Below are positions 12,591 through 53,444 of a stretch of DNA of 64,000 nucleotides, piece by piece (positions within the stretch are counted from its first letter, which is position 1; every line of letters starts with the position of its first letter). This DNA comes from Ferrimonas marina (GTDB taxonomy: Bacteria; Pseudomonadota; Gammaproteobacteria; Enterobacterales; Shewanellaceae). Position numbers and translations under genes: made by a program. Under the pieces are notes generated by a model. The model was not told the DNA's origin. It was given only the letters and a program-made list of their open reading frames with translations, and ran no database searches. The stretch covers positions 1-64,000 of the forward strand of contig NZ_FQXG01000011.1 of the NCBI RefSeq assembly GCF_900129905.1, in the 5' to 3' direction.

Positions 12591-12681
12591 AGGAGCTAGG
12601 AGCTAGGAGCTAGGAGCTAGGAGCTAGGAGCTAGGAGCTAGGAGCTAGGAGCTAGGAGCTAGGAGCTAGGAGCTAGGAGCT
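12591..12681. repeat. Heptanucleotide tandem repeat (AGGAGCT x13)
   Basis: Thirteen perfect head-to-tail copies of the 7-mer AGGAGCT, 91 bp in all, in the 373-bp noncoding gap between the small lipoprotein and the GT9 gene. The unit contains an AGCT palindrome and an AGGAG Shine-Dalgarno-like core. The purity implies recent slippage. It lies upstream of a terminator, so it would be transcribed as part of the lipoprotein 3' UTR. Confidence 0.97.
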
Positions 12682-12690
12682 AGTTGCTAG

Positions 12691-20493: not shown

Positions 20494-21771
20494 ATGACCA
20501 GCCGAATCAATGTGCTTCTGAGCGATCAGAGCATCCCCGCGCACTGGGGCAAGAGCAACATCAGCTTTGCCGGTGACAGCGTCACCATCCACCTGGCGGA
20601 CAGCCCGGATGCCGCCCGTGCCGTGCAGGCAGCGGCACGCAAGCTGACCAACCAGGGGATCCGCGACGTGGCCCTGGCCGGTGAGGGTTGGACCGAGGCG
20701 CTGCAGTGGCGCTTTGCCAGTGGCTTCGGTGAGGCGCTGGAGCCGGGCACCATTGAGTGGAATGGCGCAGGCGATCAGCTGGAAGCGCAGCGCGATGCCG
20801 CCTTGTGGCTGAAGTCCCTGACCCACGCCAGCCCCGAGGCGTTGAGCCCCGAGGTGCTGGCGGACGAGGTGGCCGAGCGCTTGACCGCCCTGGCGCCGGA
20901 GAAGATCACCTCCCGTCGTATCGTTGGTGAAGCGCTGCTGGCCGCCGGCTGGGTGGGGATCCATGGCGTTGGCCGCGGCTCCGACCGTCCGCCGGTGATG
21001 CTGGAGCTGGACTACAACCCCACCGGTGACACTAATGCGCCGGTGTCCGTGGCCCTGGTGGGCAAGGGGATCACCTTTGACTCCGGCGGTTACTCCATCA
21101 AGCCCTCCACCGGCATGGTGACCATGAAGTGCGATATGGGCGGTGCGGCCACCGTGGCAGCGGCGCTGAAACTGGCGATCCGTCGTGGCCTGGATAAGCG
21201 GGTCAAGCTCTACCTGTGCTGCGCTGAGAACCTGGTTTCCGGCCACGCCTACAAGCTGGGTGACATCCTCCACTACAAGAACGGCACCAGCGTCGAGATC
21301 GTCAACACCGATGCCGAGGGGCGCCTGGTGCTGGCGGATGGCCTGATCGCCGCCAACGAAGCGGGCGCTGAGCGCATCATCGATGCCGCCACCCTGACCG
21401 GCGCGGCTATGGTGGCCCTGGGCAGCGACTACAACGCGCTGTTCTGTGGTGACGATGCCGTCGCTGCCGAGGCCCTGACCGCCGCTGCCAAGGCGGACGA
21501 AGGCCTGTGGCGCCTGCCGCTGGCGCCGATCCACGCCGATAAGTGCCCCTCGGTGTTTGCCGATACCGCCAACTCAGTGGCACAGAAAGGTGGCGGTGGC
21601 GGCGGTGCCTCCAACGCCGCTGGCTTCCTCAGCCGCTTTGCCGGTACCCCGCCCAAGGGCTGGATCCACCTGGATCTGGCGGGCAGCTACGTCGGTGGCA
21701 ATGGCCAGAACCACGAAGGGGCCACCGCTCTGGGTCTGCTGACCGTGACCGAACTGCTGATGCAGGCGTAA
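20494..21771 (+). CDS. pepB: Aminopeptidase B (peptidase family M17)
   Basis: A 425-residue cytosolic dinuclear-metal aminopeptidase. Catalytic blocks: GKGITFDSGGYSIKPSTGM (Lys and Asp ligands), KCDMGGAA, and the family signature NTDAEGRLVLADGL. The length and N-terminal architecture match PepB of E. coli (427) more closely than PepA (503). AAAGGAAAGG precedes the ATG. It is divergent from sfsA and followed by a strong terminator. It would trim N-terminal residues during peptide turnover. Confidence 0.93.
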   Translation: MTSRINVLLSDQSIPAHWGKSNISFAGDSVTIHLADSPDAARAVQAAARKLTNQGIRDVALAGEGWTEALQWRFASGFGEALEPGTIEWNGAGDQLEAQRDAALWLKSLTHASPEALSPEVLADEVAERLTALAPEKITSRRIVGEALLAAGWVGIHGVGRGSDRPPVMLELDYNPTGDTNAPVSVALVGKGITFDSGGYSIKPSTGMVTMKCDMGGAATVAAALKLAIRRGLDKRVKLYLCCAENLVSGHAYKLGDILHYKNGTSVEIVNTDAEGRLVLADGLIAANEAGAERIIDAATLTGAAMVALGSDYNALFCGDDAVAAEALTAAAKADEGLWRLPLAPIHADKCPSVFADTANSVAQKGGGGGGASNAAGFLSRFAGTPPKGWIHLDLAGSYVGGNGQNHEGATALGLLTVTELLMQA

Positions 21772-21788
21772 GCCGCATTTAGGTAAAG

Positions 21789-21823
21789 AAAAAGCCCCAA
21801 GGCGCAAACCTTGGGGCTTTTTT
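21789..21823 (+). terminator. Intrinsic terminator after pepB
   Basis: Perfect 14-bp stem (21789-21802 with 21809-21822), 6-nt loop, T-run. It starts 18 bp after the pepB stop. Confidence 0.96.
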
Positions 21824-21944
21824 GTGTCAGGCAAATTAGGAAAACATACGAACCGGAGCGTGGCTCGCTGGAGCTCAGCTACTGTCGAACAGGAAAGTTT
21901 GCACATCTGGTCGAGACAAAGATCGCCAAATGTTCTGAGAGGAT

Positions 21945-22595
21945 TCAGAACATATAGCTAGCTCTCAGGTCAATTGGCCTGCGTTCGATCATCAGCCTAC
22001 CTTTAGGTGCTTTGTTCAGTGCGGAGGAGGGTTTCTTGGCGTTGCTGTGATGCGTGACGATGGGCACTCTGCCGGCACCGTGAAACAACGATTGGTTGGG
22101 GGTGTAGCGTGTTGCTTCTGGTGCGGACTCGCCGGTCTCCAGCGACATGATCACTAGATATCTTGCTTCCGGGAGAGGGGTGACTGCTGCCCTAAGATGA
22201 GACCGTTCCATCAGGGAACCGCCAAAGTGTTTCATCTGCAGTGAATAAGCATGTATCAACTGGCGATCAGCATTGAGCTCAAACAGCACAGGATCGAAAT
22301 ACTGGCGCTTATGTAGTCCACGGACGTAGCTCTTCAGCATGAAATAGTGATCGGTCATATCCGGCAATTCCATTGCCACGGCATAGCTTCGCTCTCCCTC
22401 GTATTCGTACACGGAGAGACCGGGCCCCATCTCTAGCTTTAACGCCTTTGTGAAGTCTGGCTGCAGCATAGTGAGTTCGGCGAAATGGGAGCAGCATACA
22501 GGTTCAGCCATAAGTGCATGGCGCTGCTGTTCAGGTGGAGTGGCGCAGCCGGTCAGCACAATCAGGGCAGCAGCTAGCAGAGCGTTGTATTTCAT
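21945..22595 (-). CDS. Lipoprotein, MalM-like
   Basis: A 216-residue lipoprotein with signal MKYNALLAAALIVLTGC (lipobox LTGC). After a short linker, a double cysteine (EPVCCSHFAEL) precedes an all-beta region: SVYEYEGERSYAVAMELPD, YFDPVLFELNADRQLIHAY and ARYLVIMSLETGE. This layout resembles the MalM periplasmic protein family (CC motif, then two beta-sandwich-like halves), but the similarity is remembered, not computed. No maltose genes are nearby. The TTG at 22634 is an alternative start, but the lipoprotein signal points to the ATG at 22595, which has only a weak Shine-Dalgarno. Base composition is less GC-rich than in neighbours, suggesting transfer. Confidence 0.5.
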   Translation of the reverse strand: MKYNALLAAALIVLTGCATPPEQQRHALMAEPVCCSHFAELTMLQPDFTKALKLEMGPGLSVYEYEGERSYAVAMELPDMTDHYFMLKSYVRGLHKRQYFDPVLFELNADRQLIHAYSLQMKHFGGSLMERSHLRAAVTPLPEARYLVIMSLETGESAPEATRYTPNQSLFHGAGRVPIVTHHSNAKKPSSALNKAPKGRLMIERRPIDLRASYMF

Positions 22596-22755
22596 GAGAG
22601 GTCCATCTATCCATAGTTTTGGACAGGCTAACAACCCTCATACATCAGGATGGGGATACGGATACAGGTGGATGGGTAACTGTGACTTGAGGCTCGAATG
22701 AGGTTTGGTTGCGCCACCTTCCTCGGCCTATTTGTGCCTGACGGCTCAGGCTCGC

Positions 22756-23535
22756 TCAGGGCAGCGGCAAGCTGGCCTGGTGCGGTACCTGGGTCTGCAG
22801 GGTCAGGCTGTCGTCACCGGACTGGGTTACCTGGAACTGACCGCCCTGGTGGGACAGCTGCGTCACCAGTAGCTGTTTCTGATTGAGGCGCTGGAACCAG
22901 TAGGGCGCCAGCGAGCACTGGGCTGAGCCGGTGGCGATGTCCTCGTCGATGCCGATCTTCGGGGCAAAGTAGCGCAGCAGGTAGCCGTCGCTGCCATTGC
23001 CATTGCCGTTGGCGGCGACGGTGAGGATCAGAGCATGCTGTGGTACCTGGGAGACCAGCCAGGCGAGATCCGGCGCGGCGGTACGCAGTTGGGCTTCGTC
23101 CTCCAACACCAGCACCAGATCCCGGGTGGTGAAGGCTTCGCGAGGCGTGACGCCGATACCGGGCATTGCTGGGGGCGAAATCGGCTTTCCATTCCAGGCG
23201 GGCAAAACCAGGCTGAAGCCGCCCTGCTGGTAGGACACCGCCAGGTCACCATGGGCGCTGGTGAAGGCCATCTCGGTCAGGTCCCAGCGGCGATGGATGT
23301 CTGCCGCTACCGCAAGGCTGCCATGGCCACACAGGTTGATCTCCGCCTGTTGAGAGAACCAACGCAGGGCAAAGGCTTCCCCTTCACGGCGATAGAAGGT
23401 GGTGACCGGCTGCGCCAGGGCACGGCTGATCGCCTGCATCTGGGCCTGGCTGGGCCAGCTGTCGACCGCCACCACGGCGGCAGGGTTGCCCTGGGCGCTG
23501 GGGCCAGCGAAGGGGTGATAAAGCTCAGCCTGCAT
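22756..23535 (-). CDS. PhzF-family isomerase/epimerase-like protein
   Basis: A 259-residue two-lobed protein of the PhzF/diaminopimelate-epimerase fold: AELYHPFAGPSAQGNPAAVV at the N-terminus, NLCGHGSLAVA and DEDIATGSAQCSLAPYW. The residue that is catalytic Glu45 in PhzF (in S-E-T-x-F) is Val44 here (P-V-T-T-F), so the usual acid/base is absent and activity is uncertain. The ATG directly abuts the TGA of a leftover thpR 3' end, and the GGGAG ribosome binding site lies inside that remnant. The gene was therefore probably translationally coupled to an ancestral thpR. Confidence 0.85.
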   Translation of the reverse strand: MQAELYHPFAGPSAQGNPAAVVAVDSWPSQAQMQAISRALAQPVTTFYRREGEAFALRWFSQQAEINLCGHGSLAVAADIHRRWDLTEMAFTSAHGDLAVSYQQGGFSLVLPAWNGKPISPPAMPGIGVTPREAFTTRDLVLVLEDEAQLRTAAPDLAWLVSQVPQHALILTVAANGNGNGSDGYLLRYFAPKIGIDEDIATGSAQCSLAPYWFQRLNQKQLLVTQLSHQGGQFQVTQSGDDSLTLQTQVPHQASLPLP

Positions 23536-23631
23536 TCAGAACTCCCAATGCTTAAGTCGATGGTACTCCACCCCGCCGGGGCCGTTTTCCGATAGCATCA
23601 GCTCGATCCGGTGTTGGCTTGGGGGCAAGGT
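23536..23631 (-). pseudogene. Displaced 3' end of a second thpR (2'-5' RNA ligase family) allele
   Basis: In frame to a TGA, these 31 codons end in ELMLSENGPGGVEYHRLKHW, then E-F-stop. The same 20 residues form the end of the intact thpR 1.7 kb away. Within the shared codons the DNA differs only at two synonymous sites (GAG/GAA, CTT/CTC). Upstream codons (TLPPSQHRI) are still alignable with thpR (ILPCHSV) but diverged. There is no start and no catalytic motif. The piece abuts phzF with stop-to-start TGAATG, so it is likely the original 3' end of thpR, displaced when DNA entered. Confidence 0.85.
23544..23606. repeat. 63-bp direct repeat, copy 1 (thpR 3' end)
   Basis: Same orientation as 25226-25288, with 61 of 63 bases identical; the offset is 1,682 bp. 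The two copies bracket the metalloprotease gene and its flanks. Confidence 0.93.
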
Positions 23632-23726
23632 AGTGTAGCAAGATCAGAGTTTGGGATAAGTCATCGCCTCGGGCGATATCAAGCTCTTGGCCGCTGGATC
23701 GCAGCCTAAGCGATCCTGTTTGATGA

Positions 23727-23770
23727 CGACAGCGGCGACGCACATTCCTCTGTGAGGCGCGCCGCTGTCG
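23727..23770 (-). terminator. Long-loop hairpin after the metalloprotease gene
   Basis: Perfect 11-bp arms (23727-23737 with 23760-23770) with a 22-nt loop that itself contains CACA/TGTG. It starts 10 bp after the stop. There is no T-run, so it is a weak terminator or a transcript-end structure. Confidence 0.5.
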
Positions 23771-23779
23771 CTTGTCGGG

Positions 23780-24613
23780 TTAGTCTTCCGGGTACAGGGC
23801 GTCGAAGGGCTGGCCCGGTGGGTTGTGCGGGCTGTACATGGTGCGCAGTACCCGCTCGGCGTTGGCATCAAAGGCGGCACCATCGCCAAAGCCTTGGAAG
23901 TGATTGCCCATCCCCAGGGCATGGCCCAGCTCGTGCAGGGTGACCTCGTCATCAGCGATGATTGTACAGCCCTCCCCCGGGATCTCGGCGCCGCTGTCGA
24001 TGTTGATCCAGGTGAACTCGTCTGGAACGTTGCGCAGCAGGCCCTGATTGCGGTCAGCCAGGTAGCTGACCAAGTTGCTCATGTTGGGGCCTTTGGAGAC
24101 CGTGCCGGAGGAGCAATTGCCTGGACTGGTGCCTTGGCTCCAGATAAAGCCCCACTCCGTCGGCAGGTGGCTGTAGTCGATAGGCTCCCACCATTCGCCG
24201 AGTTCCAGTTCAATCACGCCGCCGCTGCGGTCGAACATTGGGTAGCCGACAATGGCTTCGGCGCGGTCCATCGCTTTGGCAAAGCGCGGATCTTCGCTGC
24301 CGAGGTAGTAGACGGGGATCAGCTCGCCCTGGATAAAGCGGGTCAGGCCCGGGTGTTCGGGGGCCGGAGACTTGTCCTCAAAGCAGTACTGCCCTTTGCA
24401 GTAGCCGTGCTCATGATCCCAATCGCCCCAGGCGTAGCCCGAGTTGGCGGTGCAGTAACTGTCCGGCTGGCTGGGTTTACCCAGCCGCAGGTTGGAGCAC
24501 TTGATGGTGTCAAACAGCTGTTGATTGGACCAGGAGTTGTCGGTATCGCTGTCGCTACCACAGCCGATCAATAGGGTGGCACAGGCCACAGTTAGAGCAG
24601 ATAACCGCATCAT
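23780..24613 (-). CDS. Metzincin-like zinc metalloprotease lipoprotein
   Basis: A 277-residue lipoprotein (signal MMRLSALTVACATLLIGC, lipobox LIGC) with a cysteine-rich N-terminal part (CSNL, SYCTAN, YCKGQYC) and a zinc protease core. HELGHALGMGNH has H227, E228, H231 and H238, with Gly234 between. The third histidine is one residue farther than in the canonical HExxHxxGxxH. A Met-turn-like TMYSP follows at residues 259-262. The order HExxH, Gly, His, Met-turn is typical of metzincins. It probably acts at the cell surface or in the periplasm on unknown substrates. AAGGAT lies upstream. The gene is enclosed by 63-bp direct repeats of the thpR 3' end and is probably acquired. Confidence 0.75.
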   Translation of the reverse strand: MMRLSALTVACATLLIGCGSDSDTDNSWSNQQLFDTIKCSNLRLGKPSQPDSYCTANSGYAWGDWDHEHGYCKGQYCFEDKSPAPEHPGLTRFIQGELIPVYYLGSEDPRFAKAMDRAEAIVGYPMFDRSGGVIELELGEWWEPIDYSHLPTEWGFIWSQGTSPGNCSSGTVSKGPNMSNLVSYLADRNQGLLRNVPDEFTWINIDSGAEIPGEGCTIIADDEVTLHELGHALGMGNHFQGFGDGAAFDANAERVLRTMYSPHNPPGQPFDALYPED

Positions 24614-25220
24614 ATAAATCCTTTACGTTAAAAAAGTGAACTGGCTACTTCGTTCCGTCATGACCCTTTTTCTGCCCTCGAGCGCTCATTTGCAGATCGC
24701 GCTCCGAATGCAATTCAGCGCGTGGAGCTGCGCGTGACGCTGAAGGTGCAGGGTTTCGCTCACCAATGGGTTCACAACAGGTCAAAGGCAGCCTGCGCTG
24801 CCCCATCACAATTCATTTGAGTTTGCCCAGCACCAGAGACACGGTGTATGGCTCTTTTTCCCAGGTACAAAGCCGCTGTCAAAACTGGGGTTAAGACTCG
24901 AGGTATAGGATGGGGATCATTGCTGACGGTGATTGGCGCGAGGTGCTGAGGCTTGGCTCCTAAAGTACTCTGCCCACATTGGTTTTGTGGCTTCGAGGGT
25001 ACTCATGATTGTCCTCGGCGGTAGAGTCAATATCTGACATTTCGCCGAATGAGTCCGTCCGTGCCACGGGAATTTTGAACGCCTTACCGGCGGGGGGGCG
25101 GGCAAACTGGGCATAAAGAGGGGGGCGAAAAGGACCAATAGCGGGGAACCTGGCTTATCGCTGCCTTCAACGACCTGGGTGTGAATGGCTCAGTCATTCA
25201 ATAGCCCGGATGGCCCAGGT
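24614..25220. other. Noncoding arm of the putative thpR island
   Basis: About 600 bp of mixed composition between the metalloprotease and thpR. I see no integrase, transposase or tRNA. A 29-codon frame with a GAGGA ribosome binding site (24917-25006) is the only coding candidate. The region must contain the metalloprotease promoter and may hold decayed genes. Confidence 0.5.
24917..25006 (-). CDS. Possible 29-residue peptide
   Basis: The frame MSTLEATKPMWAEYFRSQAS... ends at TGA and is preceded by GAGGACAATC before the ATG, a credible Shine-Dalgarno. It has no signal peptide or membrane helix and I recognise no family. It may equally be a decayed fragment. Confidence 0.2.
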   Translation of the reverse strand: MSTLEATKPMWAEYFRSQASAPRANHRQQ

Positions 25221-25745
25221 TTAGGCCCAATGCTTGAGTCGATGGTACTCCACCCCGCCGGGGCCGTTTTCCGATAGCATCAGTTCGACGCTATGGCAGG
25301 GCAGGATGATGGGCGGCTCCAGTTGCTCAGGCAGCTCGGGCAGCAGTGCCGAGGCGCCGCGGAACAGGGTAATGTGGGGGCGAAACGCCTGACGGCTGGC
25401 GTGCAGGCCGTGATGGGCGGCGTCCTGCTGCAGGGCACTGGCTAGCTGGCCAAGGGCGATGGGGGTGCGGCGTGCACCCAGGGCCAGGACCCCGGGCTTG
25501 GCCCAGTAGTGCAGGGTATCCAGCGATAGCTGCAGATCTGGCGGCACCAGCTCAGCCCAGCGCTCCAGCAAGCTGGCCTTTTGACTGGCGGTGACGTTGC
25601 CCAGAAAGGCCAGGGTGAGATGGAAGTTGGCGGCTGGCACCGGTCGCCCGCGCACGCCGGCCTGGGCCAGCGCACTTTGCTGACGCAGCAGCGCCAGCTG
25701 GGTGACGCGGGGGACCGGCACGGAGAAAAACAGTCGTTGGGCCAT
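25221..25745 (-). CDS. thpR: RNA 2',3'-cyclic phosphodiesterase (2'-5' RNA ligase family)
   Basis: A 174-residue two-lobed phosphoesterase with the paired HxTx motifs that define the family: F-H-L-T-L near residue 41 and P-H-I-T-L near residue 125. It opens 2',3'-cyclic phosphates on RNA and shows 2'-5' ligase activity in vitro in relatives. The ATG at 25745 has GAGGTG close upstream; a GTG two codons earlier is less likely. It is divergent from hrpB, as in E. coli. Its last 20 codons are repeated in front of phzF, so this 3' end may have been supplied by incoming DNA. Confidence 0.93.
   Translation of the reverse strand: MAQRLFFSVPVPRVTQLALLRQQSALAQAGVRGRPVPAANFHLTLAFLGNVTASQKASLLERWAELVPPDLQLSLDTLHYWAKPGVLALGARRTPIALGQLASALQQDAAHHGLHASRQAFRPHITLFRGASALLPELPEQLEPPIILPCHSVELMLSENGPGGVEYHRLKHWA
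25226..25288. repeat. 63-bp direct repeat, copy 2 (3' end of intact thpR)
   Basis: Partner of 23544-23606, inside the functional thpR coding sequence just before its stop. It differs at 25236 and 25284 only. Confidence 0.93.
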
Positions 25746-25886
25746 GGGCACCTCATGCTGGGGTTAGGTCACCGGGATCTGTCTGCGACCGGCGCAAGAT
25801 CAAAGCCTCGGGTGTGCTGGCTGACGGCGGCGAGCAGGACAAGTACACTGTGGACCGATTTTTCTTCGATTGGAGCCTGAGCCCCG

Positions 25887-50369: not shown

Positions 50370-53246
50370 ATGAAAGAAACCTTGACCGCCCTGTCGACCC
50401 ACGACGAGTTTTTGCAGCGTCATATCGGCCCGGATGCCGAGCAGCGTAAGGCGCTTTTGAGCGCCGTTGGCGCGGACAGCCTGGCGGATCTGACCGATCA
50501 GATCGTGCCGGAGTCGATCCGCCTGACCCAACCCTTGGCGGTAGGGGAGCCCCTCTCCGAGGTGGATGCCCTGGCCCGCCTGCGTACCCTGGCCGATCAA
50601 AACGAGATCCGAAAAACCTACATCGGCATGGGCTACTACGGCACCCTGGTACCCCACGTCATCCAGCGCAACGTGCTGGAAAACCCCGGCTGGTACACTG
50701 CCTATACCCCCTATCAGCCGGAGATCGCCCAGGGCCGCCTGGAGGCGATCCTCAACTTCCAGCAGCTGACCATGGACCTGACCGGGCTCGACCTGGCCTC
50801 TGCCTCGCTGCTGGATGAGGCCACCGCCGCTGCTGAGGCGATGGCCCTGGCCAAGCGGATGTCTAAGAACAAGAAATCCGATCTGTTCTTCGTGGCCGAT
50901 GACGTCTTCCCCCAGACCCTGGACGTGGTTAAGACCCGCGCCGAGCAACTGGAACTGGAGGTGATTGTCGGCCCGGCTAAGCAAGCCGCCGATCACGACA
51001 TCTTCGGTGCCCTGCTGCAGTACCCCAACCAGCTGGGCGCGGTAGAGGACTACCGCACCCTGGCCGACGCCATCCACGACAAGAAAGCACTGGTGTGTGT
51101 CGCCTCCGATCTGCTGGCGCTGATCAAGCTGCAGGCCCCGGCCCAGTGGGGCGCCGACGTGGTGTTCGGCAGTGCCCAGCGCTTCGGTGTGCCGATGGGC
51201 TACGGCGGCCCCCACGCTGCCTTCTTTGCCACCCGTGACGCCTACAAGCGCTCCATGCCGGGGCGCATCATCGGTGTCTCCAAGGACACCCGTGGCAAGC
51301 CGGCGCTGCGCATGGCGATGCAGACCCGTGAACAGCACATCCGTCGGGAGAAGGCCAACTCCAACATCTGTACCGCCCAGGTGCTGTTGGCCAACATGGC
51401 CTCCTTCTACGCCGTCTACCACGGCCCGCAGGGGCTGAAGAAGATCGCCGACCGTACTCACCGCCTCACCTCCATCCTCTCTGCGGGCCTGATGCAGAGC
51501 GGCATCAAGGTGGTGAACAGCAGCTGGTTCGACACCCTGACCCTGGCCCCGGCGGATCGCGATGCGGTGCTGGCCCGGGCCGAGCAGGCCAAGGTTAACC
51601 TGCGTACCGATCTGCCCGGCACCCTGGGTATCAGCCTGGATGAGACCACCACCGCTGCCGACATCCTGCAGCTGTGGGACGTGCTGGTGGGTGCTGATCA
51701 CGGCCTGACCGTGGACGCGGTAGATGAGATGGTGGATGAGATCCTCGATCCGCGCCTGCTGCGCAGCGAGGCGATCCTGCAGCATCCGGTGTTCAACCAG
51801 TACCACTCCGAGACTGAGATGTTGCGCTACATCCGTCGCCTAGAGGGCAAGGATCTGGCGCTGAACCACTCGATGATCTCTCTGGGCTCCTGCACCATGA
51901 AGCTCAACGCCACCGCCGAGATGATGCCGGTGAGCTGGCCGGAGTTTGCCAACCTGCACCCCTTCTGCCCGCAGGAGCAGGCCCAGGGCTACAAGCAGCT
52001 GGTAGACAGCCTGACCGACTACCTGCTGGACATCACTGGCTACGACGCGCTATGCATGCAGCCCAACTCCGGTGCCCAGGGCGAATACGCCGGCCTGGTG
52101 GCGATCAAGAAGTACCAGCAGTCCATCGGCGAGGGCCACCGGGATGTCTGCCTGATCCCCAGCTCTGCCCACGGTACCAACCCGGCCTCCGCCATGCTCA
52201 CCAGCCTCAAGGTGGTGGTAGTGGGCAGTGCCAAGGATGGGACCGTCGACATGGACGATCTCAAGGCCAAGGCCGAGGAGTTCTCCGATCGCCTCTCCTG
52301 CATCATGATCACCTACCCCTCCACCCACGGGGTGTACGAGGAGCAGATCAGCGAGATCTGCGATCTGATCCACCAGCACGGTGGCCAGGTTTACATGGAC
52401 GGTGCCAACATGAACGCCCAGGTGGGGATCACCTCGCCGGGCCTGATCGGCTCCGACGTGTCTCACCTCAATCTGCACAAGACCTTCGCCATCCCCCACG
52501 GTGGTGGCGGTCCGGGCATGGGCCCCATCGGGGTGAAATCCCACCTGGCGCCCTTTGTCGCAGGTCACGCGGTAGTGAAGACCGGCGGCGAAGCCCAGGA
52601 CAATGGTGCGGTCTCCGCAGCCCAGTACGGCTCTGCTTCCATCCTGCCCATCAGCTGGATGTACACCGTGATGCTGGGCAGCCGCGGCCTGACCGAGTCC
52701 ACCCAGGTGGCAATGCTCAATGCCAACTACCTGGCCACTGAGATCGGCAAGCATTTCCCCATCCTCTACACCGGCCGTAATGACCGGGTGGCGCACGAGT
52801 GCATCATCGACATGCGCCCGCTCAAAGAGGAGACCGGGGTGACCGAGATGGACGTGGCCAAGCGCCTGATGGACTACGGCTTCCATGCTCCGACCATGAG
52901 CTTCCCGGTAGCCGGTACCCTGATGGTGGAGCCGACAGAGTCCGAGTCCAAGGCGGAGCTGGATCGCTTTATCCACGCCATGGTCAACATCCGTGAAGAG
53001 ATCGCCCAGGTGGGGCGCGGCGAATGGCCGGCGGACAACAACCCGCTGTGCAACGCCCCGCACACCCTGGACGACATCATGGATCCGGCCTTCGATGAAC
53101 GCCCCTACAGCCGCGAGCAGGCGGTGTTCCCGGTGGCGGAGCTGCGCGACAACAAGTTCTGGCCTACCGTTAATCGCATCGATGATGTGTTCGGTGACCG
53201 TAACCTGTTCTGCGCCTGCGTGCCGATGGACGCCTACCAGGACTGA
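50370..53246 (+). CDS. gcvP: Glycine dehydrogenase (decarboxylating), P protein
   Basis: A 958-residue homodimer-type P protein that decarboxylates glycine with PLP and passes the aminomethyl group to H protein. The N-terminal half has [21 protein letters not shown] and [13 protein letters not shown]. The C-terminal half has [11 protein letters not shown], the PLP-lysine site [18 protein letters not shown] and [14 protein letters not shown]. The length equals E. coli GcvP (957). It is separated from gcvH by 82 bp with a hairpin. Its last 24 codons and terminator occur again just downstream. Confidence 0.98.
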
Positions 53247-53293
53247 TAGTGTGGTGAGATAACGAAGCCCCGGCAGACGCCGGGGTTTTTTGT
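53171..53293. repeat. Direct repeat copy A: gcvP 3' end plus terminator
   Basis: About 123 bp matching 53322-53444 at an offset of 151 bp. The coding part is nearly identical (differences synonymous), the stop-to-terminator spacer is diverged, and the terminator is again similar. Confidence 0.93.
53268..53291 (+). terminator. Intrinsic terminator of gcvP
   Basis: CCCCGGC/GCCGGGG stem (53268-53274 with 53279-53285) then T6, 21 bp past the stop. Confidence 0.92.
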
Positions 53294-53321: not shown

Positions 53322-53444
53322 TAACCGCATCGATGATGTGTTCGGTGACCGCAACCTGTTCTGCGCCTGTGTACCGATGGACGCCTACCAGGACTGATAA
53401 GGTCTAAAGACAGAAAGCCCCGGCATACGCCGGGGCTTTTTTGT
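53322..53444 (+). pseudogene. Displaced 3' end of a second gcvP allele with its own terminator
   Basis: Positions 53325-53396 encode the same last residues as GcvP ([11 protein letters not shown]...MDAYQD) and stop with TGA. The codons differ from gcvP at four sites (AAT/AAC, CGT/CGC, TGC/TGT, GTG/GTA), all synonymous. There is no start and nothing of the enzyme core. A homologous terminator follows (53415-53438). The pattern means that this tail diverged as part of a functional gcvP before it was cut off. Confidence 0.9.
53415..53443 (+). terminator. Terminator of the displaced gcvP tail
   Basis: AAGCCCCGGC/GCCGGGGCTT perfect stem (53415-53424 with 53429-53438), then T4. It is a better stem than the one after the intact gcvP. 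Confidence 0.9.

Follow-up and report, generated by a model that had tools for sequence, protein, structure and literature searches.

By what route single accessory genes enter chromosomes without a phage, plasmid, insertion sequence or integrase is often unclear, and the thpR locus of Ferrimonas marina raises this question in a compact form. We analyzed a stretch of 64,000 nucleotides (nt) of this species (assembly GCF_900129905.1, contig NZ_FQXG01000011.1, positions 1 to 64,000; hereafter the window), in which the 3' end of thpR is present twice, as a 63-bp direct repeat, around DNA that encodes a putative protease. How did the gene acquire a second end, and how did the DNA between the two ends arrive? 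We think it probable that an additive recombination left its scar at thpR, in which a circularised fragment from a sister lineage was inserted by a single RecA crossover. This reading draws on the anatomy of the repeat, on six further gene-end duplications in the same genome, on the codon positions at which the copies differ and on a comparison with 13 congeners.

The repeat was confirmed as a preliminary description of this DNA, made from its letters, had given it (BLAST E 1.8e-26 within the locus; Table 1). One copy forms the 3' end of an intact thpR, and the other is a headless tail that reads ...EYHRLKHWEF-TGA, with its stop directly against the phzF ATG at 23535. Both differences between the copies are synonymous (CTC/CTT and GAA/GAG), as had also been noted. 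Joining the two flanks in silico yielded a thpR of 177 amino acids (aa) running straight into the phzF ATG, and a GGGAG overlapping the block end could be the ribosome-binding site of phzF. In the whole genome (4.98 Mb), a search for further copies found the repeat only at these two positions at E <= 0.001.

The preliminary description had further read the DNA upstream of the tail as a diverged but recognisable thpR, which was not confirmed. For stretches reaching 30, 60 and 120 nt upstream from the block, 68%, 96% and 80% of shuffled sequences scored as high, respectively. For the 13 residues before the block, the corresponding fraction was 0.89 with the thpR of the window, and the lowest value among the 13 congener ThpRs was 0.056. 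A tblastn alignment stretched approximately 10 residues upstream of the block only via an 8-residue gap, and the HMMER match to thpR ended approximately 3 residues beyond the block. Homology to thpR upstream of the block was thus rejected on shuffle tests at both the nucleotide and the protein level; on these alignments, the thpR repeat is a sharp block.

Plasmid and phage relatives were sought, and the 1619-bp insert had no nucleotide match in the phage or plasmid collections; it did match 20 other genomes, including 12 congeners, and further places in its own, but always within the protease gene. A 26-bp piece of the block had no copy in viral contigs. No known RNA was found in the insert, the three matches below the gathering score (E up to 1) all lying outside it at 21728-21834, and ARAGORN found no tRNA in the window.

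The arrangement at thpR recurs elsewhere in the genome. We scanned 2,364,948 bases (47% of the genome; the window and further fetched stretches) for direct repeats that stood isolated, were 36 bp or longer with at least 87% identity and lay within 15 kb of each other; the filter dropped pairs inside repeat arrays (939 raw pairs on contig C10), where units may be missed. All 22 isolated pairs found were inspected, and seven were classed as gene-tail units, i.e., the 3' end of an intact gene, some intervening DNA and a headless repeat of this 3' end. Block lengths across the seven were 63, 74, 41, 91, 189, 565 and 76 bp, the units measured 151, 1221, 1389, 1682, 1907, 1943 and 2650 bp, and six of them carry cargo genes in gaps that, over all seven, range from 77 to 2559 bp. 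Domain names were taken from Pfam, and lipoprotein calls were made by eye. The protease and the 100-, 208-, 337- and 518-aa cargo proteins had no Pfam match whatever, and no restriction-modification gene was recognised by Pfam among the cargo examined (the protease, five of the six main cargo proteins and one small one). The second unit of the window lies at a gene that we take, by eye, to be gcvP, and each of its block copies is followed by its own terminator-like hairpin.

Table 1. Features of the thpR locus and the seven gene-tail units of the genome. Positions refer to the window unless a contig is named; locus positions are given in parentheses.
Feature	Position	Strand	Identity of copies	Gap (bp)	Remarks
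217-aa lipoprotein-like gene	21945-22598				neighbouring lipoprotein
phzF-family gene	22756..23535	-			
Tail end	23536..23543	-			open reading frame reads HWEF-TGA, abuts phzF
63-bp block, headless thpR tail	23544..23606	-	61/63		
Spacer, protease stop to tail	23607..23779	-			173 bp, with hairpin sequence
Inserted DNA between block copies	23607..25225	-			1619 bp; unit length 1682 bp
Cargo gene, putative lipoprotein zinc protease	23780..24613	-			277 aa; HELGHALGMGNH
DNA without assignable gene	24614..25220	.			607 bp; GC 0.540 vs 0.627 in window
thpR, intact	25221..25751	-			176 aa as listed from GTG; ends HWA-TAA; TIGR02258 over cut-off; orthologues in 13/13 congeners
63-bp block, copy within intact thpR	25226..25288	-			from repeat comparison
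gcvP-like gene	50370..53246	+			958 aa; target of second unit in window
74-bp block, gcvP 3' end copy	53175..53248	+			
74-bp block, headless gcvP tail	53326..53399	+	71/74		77 bp downstream; 3/3 differences synonymous
Unit 1, thpR	in window		61/63	1619	cargo: protease
Unit 2, gcvP	in window		71/74	77	no cargo
Unit 3, tRNA-Gly(CCC)	C5:96026-97973 (L124 12026-13973)		41/41	1866	cargo: one 518-aa lipoprotein-like gene
Unit 4, 546-aa lipoprotein-like gene	C7		86/91, terminator included	2559	cargo: 570-aa PQQ-repeat lipoprotein-like protein and 100-aa protein
Unit 5, DUF1254/DUF1214 gene	C6		183/189	1032	cargo: 208-aa lipoprotein-like protein
Unit 6, proton-antiporter subunit	C6:334512-337019 (L194 14512-17019)		551/565	1378	cargo: 428-aa protein with PGAP1/DUF676-like hydrolase matches
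Unit 7, MFS transporter	C12		71/76	1313	cargo: 337-aa protein without Pfam match

The codon positions at which the copies differ carry most of the argument on origin. The block copies differ by 0-7%, and the six coding units together hold 31 coding differences, of which 26 fall at third codon positions and 24 are synonymous; none creates a stop. Taking each base as independent, although the DUF1254/DUF1214 and MFS units each hold one codon with two changes, the excess at third positions was significant against an expectation of one third (P = 1e-8) and against the 46% that we roughly estimated for a duplicate left to decay (P = 1.6e-5). The antiporter unit alone supplies 14 of the 31 differences; without it, 14 of 17 were at third positions (P = 5e-5 and 0.002 on the same two expectations). 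That is, divergence was constrained at the protein level. The copies must have diverged mostly as working gene ends in two lineages, to be joined later, because 26 of the 31 differences are at third positions and no stop has arisen. This pattern indicates a close sister lineage as the source of the DNA and speaks against duplication followed by decay. At thpR itself, the evidence of functional divergence consists of the two synonymous differences, and the argument is carried by the six units jointly; on that footing, one of the two thpR ends very likely came from another lineage. Among the origins proposed in the preliminary description, homologous recombination with foreign DNA fitted best.

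Comparison with the 13 congeners indicated what kind of site the DNA had entered. The order pepB-[variable interval]-thpR-hrpB-mrcB was found in all 13, and the interval ranged from approximately 0.4 to 3.8 kb, with contents differing between genomes. None of the 13 intervals contained the protease, phzF or the 217-aa lipoprotein-like gene, and none contained a comparable second thpR end (best E 0.01). Neither phzF nor the 217-aa protein had a match anywhere in the 13 congener genomes. On gene content, accessory DNA occupies the pepB-thpR interval, and the pairing of thpR with phzF is lineage-specific at most, because the protease and phzF are absent from this interval in the congeners and its contents vary among them. 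The preliminary description had supposed that DNA entered at the thpR 3' end; this was supported by the lack of the cargo and of a comparable second end in the congeners. A thpR-phzF pair as the ancestral state of the genus was not supported. The preliminary description had also taken the neighbourhood of E. coli, in which sfsA adjoins thpR, as a sign of an altered locus. In E. coli K-12, sfsA indeed lies directly beside thpR, but pepB occupies this place in all 13 congeners, with sfsA beyond it in 12 of the 13 within the stretch fetched; judged from this gene order, the difference from E. coli is older than the thpR insertion. The thpR ends of the congeners matched the block copies at just 28-44 of 63 positions, and the donor would therefore be far closer than any congener compared. 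At two of the other targets, the cargo was absent from 4/4 and 4/4 congener loci (approximately 1.5 kb of flank each), but the downstream genes were not conserved there.

The events at thpR may be pictured as follows. A short fragment from a sister lineage, comprising the last ~63 bp of its thpR and approximately 1.6 kb of downstream DNA with the protease gene, would have entered the cell, where its ends would have been joined into a circle. The circle would then have integrated by one RecA-dependent crossover within the 63 bp that it had in common with the resident thpR. The product would be an intact thpR with a donor-derived end (HWA-TAA) followed by the downstream DNA of the donor, while the displaced resident end (HWEF-TGA) would have stayed attached to phzF. 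The same kind of event would have recurred to give the seven units, all of them at gene 3' ends, in the 47% of the genome scanned. This position may be explained without targeting because the target gene stays intact: insertions at gene tails would persist, whereas those inside a gene or over an operon promoter would usually be harmful. An experimental precedent exists in E. coli, where, with one-sided homology, 56 of 60 Lac- clones carried a partial duplication of the homologous locus, and the duplications, 109-950 bp long in the 14 clones sequenced, were ascribed to partial degradation, recircularisation and a single crossover (Amarir-Bouhram et al. 2011; PMC3240628). For F. marina, natural transformation is a possible, if unproven, route of uptake. 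A bolder extension, which we consider doubtful, is that the units are cassettes that move without a recombinase: recombination between the tail copies would release a circle of tail and cargo and restore the gene, the circle could re-insert in another cell at the same gene tail, and gene 3' ends throughout the genome would serve as docking sites at which the members of a species complex exchange surface and accessory genes by nothing more than homologous recombination.

Several other routes lead to a similar map. The preliminary description had also named a decayed or trans-mobilised element, and we considered site-specific integration in this form: a small element that lacks a recombinase would be mobilised by a tyrosine recombinase acting in trans, and the 63 bp would be its attachment site. 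Gene and tRNA 3' ends are classic integration sites, such an element supplies a new gene end, and the tRNA-Gly unit, with its identical 41-bp copies and single lipoprotein-like gene, looks just so. However, the seven targets are unrelated; with both strands considered, no 8-mer recurred in three or more of the seven blocks, and a 7-mer in no more than three; no 7-mer was common to three or more of the seven 40-nt tail-side junctions, and the block piece sought in viral contigs had no copy there. In the 20 nt upstream of the blocks only 2-7 positions matched, so that similarity stops at the tail-side edge, and at the opposite edge the gcvP and MFS units continue with similar terminators. In agreement with the earlier statement that no integrase is visible, no PF00589 integrase was found on the thpR contig (C5), where serine recombinases and transposases were not searched, nor, for any of the 14 genomes of this genus, on the same contig within approximately 50 kb of thpR, a reach that contig ends shorten in our genome, G008 and G010. 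Thus, neither a nearby recombinase of this family nor a constant attachment core, as expected of an integrase island, was found. The action of one site-specific recombinase is not favoured, because the blocks range in length between 41 and 565 bp, three or more of them never share an 8-mer and PF00589 is missing from the contig, and we regard site-specific integration as decidedly unlikely. We give even less credence to a double-crossover exchange of cassettes at the pepB-thpR interval, with the tail duplication as a by-product of several rounds; the variable length and contents of this interval in the 13 congeners suit it, but such exchange does not by itself make a tail duplication, and six further duplications lie at other loci.

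If the gene end had been duplicated locally, in an event resembling the target duplication of a transposition, and the headless copy had then decayed, a direct repeat would also flank the insert, and a unit in the congener G009, described below, has a stop in its tail. The preponderance of third-position differences and the lack of stops in the six coding units contradict free decay, making this the most improbable of the routes considered. Homology-facilitated illegitimate recombination of a linear fragment would produce the same final map, either from a fragment with the thpR end and the protease whose far end was joined inside the resident thpR, or from a thpR-tail/phzF fragment of the donor that was anchored toward pepB and joined behind an already resident protease. 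A sharp internal boundary and variable lengths fit such an event, which has been reported for three naturally competent species (PMC3240628). According to the same report, this recombination generally deletes a length similar to that of the insert, mostly uses microhomology of 3-10 bp and accounted for just 4 of the 60 clones against 56 duplications in the E. coli assay (PMC3240628). We therefore consider it unlikely, although it deserves more weight than the routes above.

Additive recombination with a circularised sister-lineage fragment thus remains our preferred reading, and the following points weigh against it. Of the 7 amino-acid-changing differences, 6 are concentrated in just two units, DUF1254/DUF1214 and MFS. 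Both the empty site and the donor are reconstructions, the closest genomes compared being distant congeners, and these data do not tell which thpR copy is foreign. A homology of 63 bp, or 41 bp at tRNA-Gly, is short for an efficient RecA crossover. A ComEC homologue is present, but the ComEC family also matched in 12 of 14 control genomes, and TfoX_N was not found in the profile search. The seven units were chosen by inspection from the 22 pairs and not blind. The same scan found no gene-tail unit in 949,521 bases from outside the genus (399,521 in 41 loci and 550,000 of E. coli K-12, in which the pairs read as REP-like repeats, tRNA clusters, neighbouring paralogues and the aceF gene); at the rate of our genome, 2.8 units would be expected and none would be seen with P = 0.06, so that the genome is not proved unusual, and the 399,521 bases lie in loci of at most ~10.5 kb, in which distant pairs are invisible. 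In 236,775 bases of loci from congeners and the family genome G018, there was one unit, in G009 (L089 3209-5584), where the hrpB end and the mrcB start (401/421) are duplicated around approximately 1.5 kb beside thpR. Five of its eight hrpB differences are at third positions, one is a premature stop in the tail, and 12 of the 20 differences are unclassed. This unit suggests that the kind of event is not confined to one species, without a clear third-position signal of its own.

The cargo protein at thpR combines an N-terminus that is lipoprotein-like by eye with HELGHALGMGNH. Its earlier description as a lipoprotein beside some 600 bp of unassigned DNA agrees with this reading, but the term "metzincin-like" is loose. 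Metzincins carry HExxHxxGxxH, in which the third histidine stands one residue earlier than in the cargo family, where it is at motif position 12 (HExxHxxGxxxH) in 4/4 aligned members. The metzincin motif was not found in the protein, nor did any Pfam family match it; the NF038122 metalloprotease profile matched only far below its cut-off. There was no sequence match in the PDB up to E 1, and the cargo had nothing below E 0.09 in PHROG. The predicted structure was unusable (pLDDT 36.5) and lends no support to a fold. Zinc-protease activity is thus putative, based on the motif. Relatives of the protein are a paralogue in the same genome (C7:332000, 64%), a homologue at another locus of the congener G004 (70%) and a weak relative in G018; among 369 genomes drawn from the class, its own included, only its own genome matched. 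The HExxHxxGxxxH family was accordingly seen twice in this genome, in one congener and weakly in one family genome, and in no others of the 60 relatives and the 369 genomes searched.

The other 15 isolated pairs comprised one 5'-end duplication, two pairs near contig starts and 12 tandem paralogues, within-gene repeated domains or unclassed repeats. At C7:557011-558597 (L154 17011-18597), the 5' part of a gene presumably REP-associated-transposase-like is duplicated (303/303) around approximately 1 kb with a 138-aa open reading frame inside, and 'CCACTCTGACCCCTT' also occurs beside the antiporter unit on C6. A perfect tandem array occupies positions 12591-12683 of the window; its self-match distances lie between 21 and 49 bp, and each is a multiple of 7.

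If our reading is true, a headless tail, third-position differences and cargo between the copies form a signature by which additions can be recognised in a single genome. Such a signature would date additions relative to known relatives and imply a close sister donor, and the cargo is predicted to drop out again by recombination between the repeats. Literature searches, judged by titles and the beginnings of abstracts, gave no matching integrase-free gene-tail islets, and we compared the units with four known systems. The minimal mobile elements of Neisseria consist of conserved flanking genes with differing cassettes between them, and gene-tail duplication is not part of their definition; they share constant flanks and variable content with the pepB-thpR interval and differ in lacking the tail duplication. 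Integrase islands at tRNA and gene 3' ends supply a gene end and have direct repeats at both ends. In these two respects the units are alike, but they differ in having no PF00589 on the contig, repeats of variable length and no shared core. The duplications of Amarir-Bouhram et al. 2011 (PMC3240628) likewise flank foreign DNA with a partial copy of the homologous locus (109-950 bp), although they are a selected laboratory event with a conjugated plasmid, whereas the present blocks of 41-565 bp are natural. Insertion with long target duplication in Helicobacter pylori (Nobusato et al. 2000, as cited in PMC1643837, PMC3031569 and PMC4978471) likewise places inserted genes between long direct repeats of the target that vary in length, as they do here at seven loci. 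In the citing passages, the H. pylori inserts are frequently, not obligatorily, restriction-modification genes, the duplication is present in one strain but absent from the other, and one passage allows a site-specific manner. Here, in contrast, Pfam recognised no such genes, the duplications sit at gene 3' ends, and distant congeners take the place of an empty strain in the comparison; codon evidence for a sister-lineage source is offered here and is not mentioned in those passages. As far as these passages describe it, this type of insertion comes closest among the natural systems, and the units of F. marina fit its anatomy.

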